Shown in pieces: positions 1 through 41,059 of a DNA stretch of 41,059 nt. A program made the translations under genes and the position numbers. This stretch comes from a virus. The notes beneath the pieces were generated by a model, which did no database searches, was not told where the DNA came from, and saw only the letters and a program-made list of their open reading frames with translations. The DNA lies in the IMG/VR virus record IMGVR_UViG_3300025679_000004, positions 1 through 41,059 of that record; one strand, given 5' to 3'. Position 1 is the stretch's first letter, and every line of letters begins with the position of its first letter.

Positions 1-127
1 AATAAACGAAGCCTATTCAAAAGCGTGTGAGCTGGCCGCTATTAGTGGAATGGTGCTCATGCAGCCATACTTAGACTACACAGGTGATGACCCAGCCCAA
101 GGCTCTTTAAAGGCAAAGGTGTGGGAA
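1..127. repeat. Direct terminal repeat, left copy
   Basis: These 127 bases are identical to the last 127 of the window (40933-41059). A length of exactly 127 is a common largest k-mer of short-read assemblers, so the simplest reading is an assembly overlap of a circular or circularly permuted molecule with a 40,932-bp unit, not a biological repeat. The copy lies inside the portal gene, and the reading frame continues across the junction. Confidence 0.92.
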
Positions 128-29604: not shown

Positions 29605-29713
29605 CAAACATAGGATGACTTTTTACTAAGGTGTCCGCAAAGCTCAAGTTGCGTACGTTCCTGATCTTAGGATATTGGTGAGATTTTCAGCAAGAGGTAG
29701 ACTTTATTTCGAT

Positions 29714-29741
29714 TTGACGGTAGGTTGGAGACTCGTAACAA
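29714..29741 (+). promoter_or_regulatory. Promoter candidate for the replication-initiator transcript
   Basis: TTGACG (29714-29719), 16-bp spacer, TAACAA (29736-29741). The -35 box is good, the -10 box poor. A start near 29748 would place target hairpin 29753-29769 at the very 5' end of the mRNA. Confidence 0.3.
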
Positions 29742-29770
29742 AAAAAATGAGCCTCGGATGTGCGCCGAGA
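29740..29770 (-). terminator. Minus-strand terminator of the antisense RNA
   Basis: Read on the minus strand, GTCTCGG (29771-29765) pairs with CCGAGGC (29757-29751) as 7 bp with one G-U pair, around the loop CGCACAT, followed by TCA and eight Ts (29747-29740). This is a good intrinsic terminator, and no minus-strand protein gene lies upstream of it. Confidence 0.6.
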
Positions 29771-29795
29771 CCCAAAGGATGCAATATGAATATGC
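29740..29795 (-). ncRNA. Putative antisense RNA controlling the replication initiator
   Basis: A minus-strand promoter (29801-29828) and the terminator at 29740-29771 would yield an RNA of about 55 nt starting near 29794. It is fully complementary to the leader hairpin 29753-29769, the leader Shine-Dalgarno (29774-29779) and the leader start codon (29786). Its own hairpin exposes loop CGCACAT, complementary to the 7-nt target loop ATGTGCG, so kissing-loop contact is possible. Plasmid copy-number RNAs (CopA, Inc RNA, RNAI) are built in this way. Confidence 0.5.
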
Positions 29796-29833
29796 GTCCA
29801 ATTCTAACAGGTAGTGAATTAATCACAATCTGA
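29786..29833 (+). CDS. 15-residue leader peptide upstream of the replication initiator
   Basis: MNMRPILTGSELITI, with AAAGGA 6 bases ahead of the ATG. It ends 59 bases before the initiator start, inside the structured leader. A translating ribosome stopping at 29831-29833 would cover sequence up to about 29848 and could change the fold that hides the initiator ribosome site, like RepY/Tap peptides of plasmids. The amino-acid sequence itself has no known function. Confidence 0.45.
   Translation: MNMRPILTGSELITI
29801..29828 (-). promoter_or_regulatory. Minus-strand promoter of the antisense RNA
   Basis: On the minus strand: TTGTGA (29828-29823), 16-bp spacer, TAGAAT (29806-29801) preceded by TGT, an extended -10. 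The start would be near 29794, opposite the leader ORF. Confidence 0.5.
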
Positions 29834-29892
29834 AAGAATTACTTGGCAGTCTCCGGCGCACTTTCCCTGGCTCTTAATCACAGGGAAAATCT

Positions 29893-30693
29893 ATGTCTAA
29901 AAGTCCAGCGCATGCATTTATAATCGATATAGCCATCAAATATGGTCTAAACTGTTCGATACTCATCCAGCATTTCCAATATTGGATCCAGTTCAATCAA
30001 AAACTTAAGAGAAATTTAAAAGAAGGGCGGACATGGATGTACCAGACGAGAAAAGAGCTCGCCGCGCATTTCCCCTACTTCACAGAGAAAGAAATTCGCG
30101 GAGCTATTGATCGCCTAGTCGAGATGAAAGTCATACGAAAGGGGAATTTCAATAAGTCTAAAATCGATCAGACCTGTTGGTATTCATTCGAGAACGAGGA
30201 AGAATTTTTAAATAATGTTTACGATATGACAAAAGGGCCAATGGAGAGTACAAAAGGGCCAATGCAAGATGACAAAAGGGCCAAGCAATACCAAATACTA
30301 AATACAAATACTGAAAACAATCTTCCTCCTCTTCCTCCTCCAAAAGAAATTGAAGATGACCGTCCGTCGACTGAAGAGGAAGAAGAAATTTGTAGGAGAT
30401 TAAAAAATAGACCTAAAAGTGCAAAACCAATTACAATAATGCGTGAGTGGAGAAAACAAGTATTAAAGGACATTAGGTTCGATAGTAAGAAAGAAGATAA
30501 TAGCGAAATATTATTTGAGACGCATAAAAAGATGGCTTATAGCATGGACATGAAGAAATTCGGCGATTGGACGGTATTTGCTTGTCCAGAACATGTAGAA
30601 TTCACATGTGGGAGCCAAGTAAATAGTGTGGAATATGAACGATCCGATCATTCATGGAATCTGTATACGGAGAAATATTGGGGTAAACAATGA
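29893..30693 (+). CDS. Replication initiator (winged-helix) with internal iterons
   Basis: This protein has 266 residues. Residues 1-100 have the pattern of phage replication proteins: AFIIDIAIKYGLNCSILIQHFQYW, then TWMYQTRKELAAHFPYFTEKEIRGAIDRLVEMKVIRKGNFN, a winged-helix DNA-binding domain. A low-complexity linker (residues 110-165) follows, carrying TKGPM repeats encoded by the iterons, then a C-terminal domain with several Trp that may contact host replication proteins. This layout, with ori inside the initiator gene, recalls lambda O. Translation appears controlled by the upstream leader hairpins and antisense RNA. Overlaps the next gene by ATGA. Confidence 0.75.
   Translation: MSKSPAHAFIIDIAIKYGLNCSILIQHFQYWIQFNQKLKRNLKEGRTWMYQTRKELAAHFPYFTEKEIRGAIDRLVEMKVIRKGNFNKSKIDQTCWYSFENEEEFLNNVYDMTKGPMESTKGPMQDDKRAKQYQILNTNTENNLPPLPPPKEIEDDRPSTEEEEEICRRLKNRPKSAKPITIMREWRKQVLKDIRFDSKKEDNSEILFETHKKMAYSMDMKKFGDWTVFACPEHVEFTCGSQVNSVEYERSDHSWNLYTEKYWGKQ
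30229..30284 (+). repeat. Three iterons inside the initiator gene, probable replication origin
   Basis: ACAAAAGGGCCAA occurs at 30229-30241, 30250-30262 and 30272-30284, spaced 21 and 22 bp (two helical turns); the first two copies extend to ...TG. A very AT-rich run with AAATAC repeats (about 30285-30320) follows, a candidate unwinding element. Initiators usually bind such iterons. Confidence 0.65.
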
Positions 30694-40567: not shown

Positions 40568-41059
40568 ATGTCTTTCTACATGCCACCTTGGCAAGATAAT
40601 CTCGAGCCTAATCAAGGCAATGTCAGAGGATGGCTCGACAACCTATATGCCAAATTCCAACCACTAGAGCAAGCGCGTTGGAACGAATCGAACATAGATA
40701 CCCTCTTTTATGCGGGAGCGCAGAGCTTTGTCAACCGACATTTTAACGTTTCTCACGGAACGAATAACAATCAGCAATTCTACTTCAACATATCCCAGCA
40801 GCCGATCAACATGATAACGGGCTATCAACGCCAGCACCGAAAATCAATTAACTACATTCCAACTGAAGGGGCAGACCCTCACACAACCGACCAATATACG
40901 CGAATCATCGATCATGTCGCCAATGGAGAAGGAATAAACGAAGCCTATTCAAAAGCGTGTGAGCTGGCCGCTATTAGTGGAATGGTGCTCATGCAGCCAT
41001 ACTTAGACTACACAGGTGATGACCCAGCCCAAGGCTCTTTAAAGGCAAAGGTGTGGGAA
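40568..41059 (+). CDS. Portal protein, N-terminal part
   Basis: Starts at ATG 40568 behind TAGAGGTCCC and runs open to the window end, encoding the first 164 residues (MSFYMPPWQDNLEP ...). The last 127 bases repeat 1-127, and the frame continues there to the stop at 1747. The segment FYFNISQQPINMITGYQRQH is the typical N-terminal domain of P22-type portals (substrate clip and wing start). Confidence 0.85.
   Translation, partial: MSFYMPPWQDNLEPNQGNVRGWLDNLYAKFQPLEQARWNESNIDTLFYAGAQSFVNRHFNVSHGTNNNQQFYFNISQQPINMITGYQRQHRKSINYIPTEGADPHTTDQYTRIIDHVANGEGINEAYSKACELAAISGMVLMQPYLDYTGDDPAQGSLKAKVWE
40933..41059. repeat. Direct terminal repeat, right copy
   Basis: Identical to 1-127; see the left copy. 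When building a single molecule one copy is removed, giving 40,932 bp. Confidence 0.92.

Follow-up and report, generated by a model that had tools for sequence, protein, structure and literature searches.

The usual picture of a phage is one of replication at full speed, and antisense brakes on initiator synthesis are a plasmid trait. The staphylococcal RepA_N plasmids pSK41 and pSK1 make an antisense RNA, RNAI (~83 nt), against a part of the rep leader that lies ~100 nt before the start of translation; once it is bound, a stem-loop forms and conceals the ribosome site of rep (PMC5703833). In pT181, the 5′ arm of a hairpin close before the start of rep can be captured by a leader segment, the pre-emptor, and the antisense RNA takes this competitor away (PMC5703833). 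The I-complex plasmids (IncB/O, IncI-alpha ColIb-P9 and IncK) use RNAI-pseudoknot control, for which the key literature is listed in PMC10724649. The nearest described phage cases are lambda OOP and the RNA-based origins of mycobacterial prophages. OOP, an antisense RNA of 77 nt that terminates itself, is transcribed beside the initiator gene O (PMC3349717), and the mycobacterial extrachromosomal prophages have a plasmid-like replication that uses RNA (PMC7157519).

Here we analyse a window of 41,059 nt, meaning the whole stretch of viral DNA under study, in which the leader of a phage replication initiator probably contains an antisense-RNA-controlled translational switch that exerts negative feedback on genome copy number. 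Like pSK41, this leader has a hairpin (hairpin A) that ends 118 nt before the initiator ATG, a further hairpin (hairpin C) that hides the ribosome site, and an antisense RNA, here a predicted one. It differs from pSK41 in its initiator family, in an antisense RNA with one hairpin instead of two, in being carried by a phage and not a plasmid, and in its competitor, which is a degenerate copy of the antisense hairpin. As in pT181 and pSK41, a leader segment that the predicted antisense RNA would block competes for the 5′ arm of the initiator-proximal hairpin, in the window for part of that arm only. The main effect in pT181 is transcription termination, whereas hairpin C lacks a T-run. Likenesses to the I-complex are the predicted antisense RNA directed against a stem-loop I, the loop complement beside the ribosome-site hairpin and, in this phage, a leader ORF. 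The proposed switch follows the pre-emptor logic of pT181, acts on translation as in pSK41 and adds an IncI-like loop contact; it is a member of neither.

The two phage cases are more distant. OOP overlaps the end of cII and is not part of a leader switch of O. In the mycobacterial prophages, which carry parABS, RNA takes part directly in initiation, whereas here a protein initiator is under proposed RNA control and neither ParA nor ParB was detected in the window or in ten related phage records. Our search of the open-access literature (subscription papers were outside its scope) turned up no tailed phage in which the initiator leader is under antisense control.

The phage and its replication initiator

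The first 127 bases of the window (1-127) are identical to the last 127 (40933-41059). This direct terminal repeat indicates a complete genome whose map closes into a circle of 40,932 bp. The window encodes a P22-like portal, terminase, major head protein and tail fibre/tailspike-type proteins, together with ERF and YqaJ recombination proteins and a RusA resolvase. The replication initiator (29893-30693, plus strand; 266 aa) matched PHROG 11233 (E 2.9e-27) and is a DnaD-like helicase loader. No Pfam family was found for it at E 0.1, and no close homologue in viral or genome contigs. It is neither a RepA/RepZ protein of the IncFII/IncI family nor a RepA_N or Rep_trans protein, but belongs with PHROG phage initiators and DnaD-like loaders.

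Among 50,697 named phage records the portal had only one relative, with a 21% match, and it had 275 matches in IMG/VR and a few in MAG contigs. The near absence from named phages, set against the IMG/VR matches, indicates an uncultured group. Members of this portal group were binned in MAGs labelled Simkania, Patescibacteria, Bacteroidetes, Nitrospiraceae and others, ~40-kb contigs included; one of the MAG contigs with portal-group phages, JAGXTH010000002.1, is referred to below as L323. An integrase was present in only one of ten related phage records. The switch may serve a plasmid-like state or the lytic cycle.

Leader hairpins and a predicted antisense RNA

Hairpin A (29753-29769, plus strand) has a 5-bp stem (CTCGG/CCGAG) and the loop ATGTGCG. 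It is the predicted antisense target, and on the antisense strand its pairing extends outward to 29748-29774. In the minimum free energy (MFE) structure it is followed by hairpin B (29777-29799; GGATGCA/TGCGTCC) around the start codon of a leader ORF, and a hairpin stands at the same place in the folds of the related loci L104, L119 and L323. The leader ORF (29786-29833, ATG to TGA, 15 codons) is preceded by the Shine-Dalgarno (SD) sequence AAAGGA (29774-29779); its translation may modulate the switch in this phage without being a general part of it. Hairpin C (TTTCCCTG/CAGGGAAA, 29862-29888) covers the initiator ribosome site AGGGA (29882-29886), with the initiator ATG at 29893. The letters after hairpin C are ATCTATG and not the T-run of a terminator, so any effect of this hairpin should be on translation.

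Between the leader ORF and hairpin C lies CGGCGCAC (29854-29861), the exact complement of GTGCGCCG (29760-29767) in hairpin A. The original prediction had described a complementarity of these 8 nt, but the pairing is not limited to them. In the MFE fold, 29749-29776 pairs with 29843-29873 over most of its length, which identifies the second segment as a degenerate copy of the antisense terminator hairpin. This degenerate copy pairs with hairpin A and its flanks, includes CGGCGCAC and enters the 5′ arm of hairpin C.

On the minus strand, a predicted promoter (29801-29828; TTGTGA-16-TAGAAT with the TG of an extended -10) scored better than all 300 shuffles of the same interval. Together with a 10-pair terminator hairpin (29774-29748) followed by U8 (29747-29740), it defines a predicted antisense RNA of ~55 nt (29740-29794, minus strand; fold -14.7 kcal/mol) that would be complementary to the leader stem-loop, hairpin A. 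A scan of 2.4 kb gave six promoters (shuffled expectation 6.4) and two terminators (expectation 2.1). Since these counts match those of shuffled sequence, each element alone means little, and the case rests on their combination. Hairpin A, the leader ORF, CGGCGCAC, hairpin C and the minus-strand promoter and terminator had all been named in the original prediction, and each was found where it had been placed.

The string TTAATCACA occurs at 29819-29827 and 29874-29882, that is, twice in 64 bases, and four times in the window. Its first occurrence overlaps the -35 region of the antisense promoter, the loop of hairpin C contains the second, and AATCACA strings resembling it are present in L119 and L104. 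Possibly, TTAATCACA resembles a DnaA box.

In the mechanism that we propose, two folds of the leader would compete: one with hairpins A and C, in which the ribosome site is hidden, and one in which A is paired with its degenerate copy. The antisense RNA would be made in proportion to the number of genome copies. With few genomes in the cell it would be scarce, A would pair with the degenerate copy, and the long helix would draw in the 5′ arm of C so that the initiator is translated. With more genomes, antisense RNA would cover A, the long helix would be blocked, C would close and initiator synthesis would fall.

Recurrence in related phages

Because the initiator is without a close homologue, relatives were reached via the portal; missing genome parts were added and the initiators were then found by homology. 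The portal group was sampled as the best 80 per query of more than 300 matching records, and the set scanned comprised 3,796 ORFs from the window and ~85 related phage contigs (~2 Mb). A detector of the whole layout (A-run plus hairpin A, loop complement, hairpin C over the ribosome site, start codon) ranked the start of the window initiator first among these 3,796 ORFs. We also ranked the 1,514 ORFs with an antisense-type terminator upstream by the pairing energy of hairpin A to the leader. Initiators occupied ranks 1 (L323), 2 (the window, with a duplex of hairpin A and degenerate copy of -39.7 kcal/mol), 3 (L263), 4 (L119) and 6 (L104). With the window left out, they made up four of the top five (hypergeometric P = 9e-7); since the window and the first relatives were already known when the scans were devised, this and the following P values describe enrichment and are not those of a pre-registered test.

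A second scan ignored terminators and required pairing into the 5′ arm of the ribosome-site hairpin. It placed 10 of the 27 initiators in the top 38 of 1,216 (P = 2e-7 once the window and a duplicate are removed). The 5′ side carried an A-run in nine of ten high-scoring initiators and in 35 of 110 other hits (Fisher P = 0.001, duplicate removed). The antisense terminator is thus associated with these leaders without having been selected for. Loci fetched after the method had been fixed contained one new instance (L331/L330), in a held-out set that was small (P ~0.06). Most initiator leaders in the family do not score.

The same layout is written in other letters in L104, L119 and L323, the last with an identical match in L328. 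L104 has two tandem A hairpins, and TACGACCC pairs with GGGTCGTA and CCCCG with CGGGG of the 5′ arm of C; in L119, GAACCTCG-GGAGAG-AAGCCC pairs with GGGCTCTCTCGAGGTTC. Both L104 and L119 have the loop complement beside the ribosome-site hairpin, arranged as in the window. Variants with weaker parts, or with the competing segment just 3′ of hairpin A, were found in L263, L287, L162/L163, L160 and L265. All proteins encoded downstream are replication initiators, from different PHROG families and mostly not alignable with each other. In nearly all leaders the antisense promoters outscored shuffled intervals (p below 0.003 to 0.05), and the -10 hexamer TAGAAT of the window recurs in the best-scoring antisense sites of L323, L263 and L287. 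The layout, with other letters, recurs in at least five distinct phages, and the arrangement that the original prediction presented for a single phage is not confined to it.

We lean, if only slightly, towards a wider interpretation in which the whole uncultured portal group carries a plasmid-type antisense/pre-emptor copy-number module before the initiator, with the layout kept and the sequence not, across several initiator families. Each leader would hold a degenerate copy of its own antisense RNA as competitor, and the module would be an exchangeable replication brake that defines incompatibility. A conserved but sequence-diverse antisense switch before initiators suggests that copy number is held down at some stage, whether in a prophage of plasmid type, in a carrier state or in a timed lytic programme. 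Each phage would gain an RNA-defined incompatibility type that is predictable from sequence, and the group would supply natural antisense/leader pairs for work on RNA regulators.

Predicted competing folds of the leader

The leader of the window folds with z = -5.9 (173 nt) or -7.3 (160 nt), and those of L119 (-6.3), L104 (-5.5), L323 (-4.9), L331 (-4.9) and L263 (-4.2) gave negative scores as well. In the window, the long helix beats A plus C by roughly 14 to 18 kcal/mol. The helix of A with its degenerate copy uses up the 5′ arm of C in L119, L323, L104 and L331, and only part of it in the window.

We simulated the antisense RNA by forbidding the stretch that it covers to pair, and took the accessibility of the ribosome site as the readout. 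Under this block, accessibility fell from 0.54 to 0.01 in the window, from 0.50 to 0.17 in L119, from 0.55 to 0.26 in L323 and from 0.37 to 0.06 in L331. When blocks were slid along these four leaders as controls, the largest drop occurred at hairpin A or its partner. Blocking A had a small effect in L104 (0.42 to 0.33) and L160 (0.27 to 0.22), left accessibility unchanged in L263 and L287, and moved it the opposite way in L265.

The accessibility of the window site without antisense RNA ranged from 0.00 to 0.72 depending on the length folded. The long-range core and hairpin C can coexist within ~3 kcal/mol, and because C can sit beside the core helix, the site is predicted to be open for some RNA lengths only. 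Whether the window site opens could be decided by folding during transcription or by a ribosome translating the leader ORF, but not by static folding.

Alternative explanations

The original prediction had likened the locus to the IncB/IncI-alpha plasmids. In such a switch, a ribosome on the leader ORF would open hairpin C, a pseudoknot between loop A and CGGCGCAC would activate the ribosome site, and the antisense RNA would block both leader translation and the pseudoknot. The loop complement does lie directly beside hairpin C, and hairpin C need not open for the long-range core to stack on it. A leader ORF with an SD sequence is present in the window (15 codons), L263 (18 codons) and L104 (7 codons), but none was found in L119, L323, L160, L287 or L162, and that of the window stops 20 nt short of the pairing site, too far for a terminating ribosome to open C. 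Moreover, the pairing extends far beyond the loop, to a long helix in place of a loop-only pseudoknot, and in L119, L323, L104 and L331 it consumes the 5′ arm of C. The recognition loop of the I-complex contains a YUNR U-turn motif, which is absent from loop AUGUGCG and from its complement CGCACAU, and the initiator belongs to an unrelated family. We therefore regard an IncI-type mechanism as improbable, and the phage switch is not an I-complex replicon. Of the plasmid-style switch originally proposed, the idea that an antisense RNA controls a phage initiator whose ribosome site is buried is backed by the independent instances in related phages, whereas the close match to IncB/IncI-alpha is not upheld.

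The repeats might instead act as DNA, as a cruciform, an initiator binding site or an origin element, with the RNA folds as by-products. Origins often have inverted repeats next to an initiator gene, the initiator is preceded by a gap of 611 nt with no plus-strand ORF of at least 60 aa, and TTAATCACA occurs twice in this gap. A palindrome, however, would not need the one-sided A-run of the high-scoring initiator leaders (nine of ten), and a DNA element needs neither a third segment over the ribosome site nor an antisense promoter. Letters that differ between phages while the layout is kept also argue against it, and we give this explanation little credence. Slightly less probable still is that the antisense RNA acts mainly through RNase III cleavage or a direct block of leader translation, with hairpin C and the degenerate copy only passively structured. 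The sense-antisense duplex would be perfect over 55 nt, and the lambda OOP RNA exerts its effect on cII-O mRNA by way of RNase III (Krinke and Wulff 1990, as cited in PMC3349717). Such an action would leave unexplained why the antisense RNA is mimicked before the ribosome site in at least five phages.

Further searches and other leaders

In the sets searched, the initiators of the window, L119 and L104 had no close relative that could serve as a partner for base-by-base covariation. The exact 16-mer of hairpin A gave eight scattered matches, about the chance level. Relatives were also sought through the terminase, but the initiator was not found in those records; the portal route worked. No plasmid countertranscribed RNA family of Rfam matched the window above its gathering score, the only match within 29650-29950 being an irrelevant one (E 1.9). 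The layout was absent from named phages that share the Rep domain (BcepMigl, C3_41T2LP, D'Alembert and others). A test by RNAduplex on the loop alone, for which a single terminator was picked automatically in each leader, gave noisy results, the window and L119 being the only ones below p = 0.02; the wider scans took its place. L112 scored with the whole-layout detector and was discounted, as the match appears inside the preceding coding sequence.

Three further features of leaders were observed. At positions 555-632 of L104, the tandem antisense-type hairpins GCCCCGG...CCCGAGGC and GCCCCGG...CCCGAGAC differ in their loops, and only the second matches the partner site; they are perhaps a duplicated target that is changing its specificity. 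L180, the closest Rep relative (47%), has three tandem GGAGAACTTCCACATG-type segments at 2300-2492, all of which are complementary to the hairpin at the ribosome site, namely to its 5′ arm. In L246 (~1800-1893) and L202 (~2140-2231), two other phages with this Rep family, a long inverted repeat or a hairpin with a T-run directly precedes the initiator, and from its sequence this element looks like a transcription attenuator.
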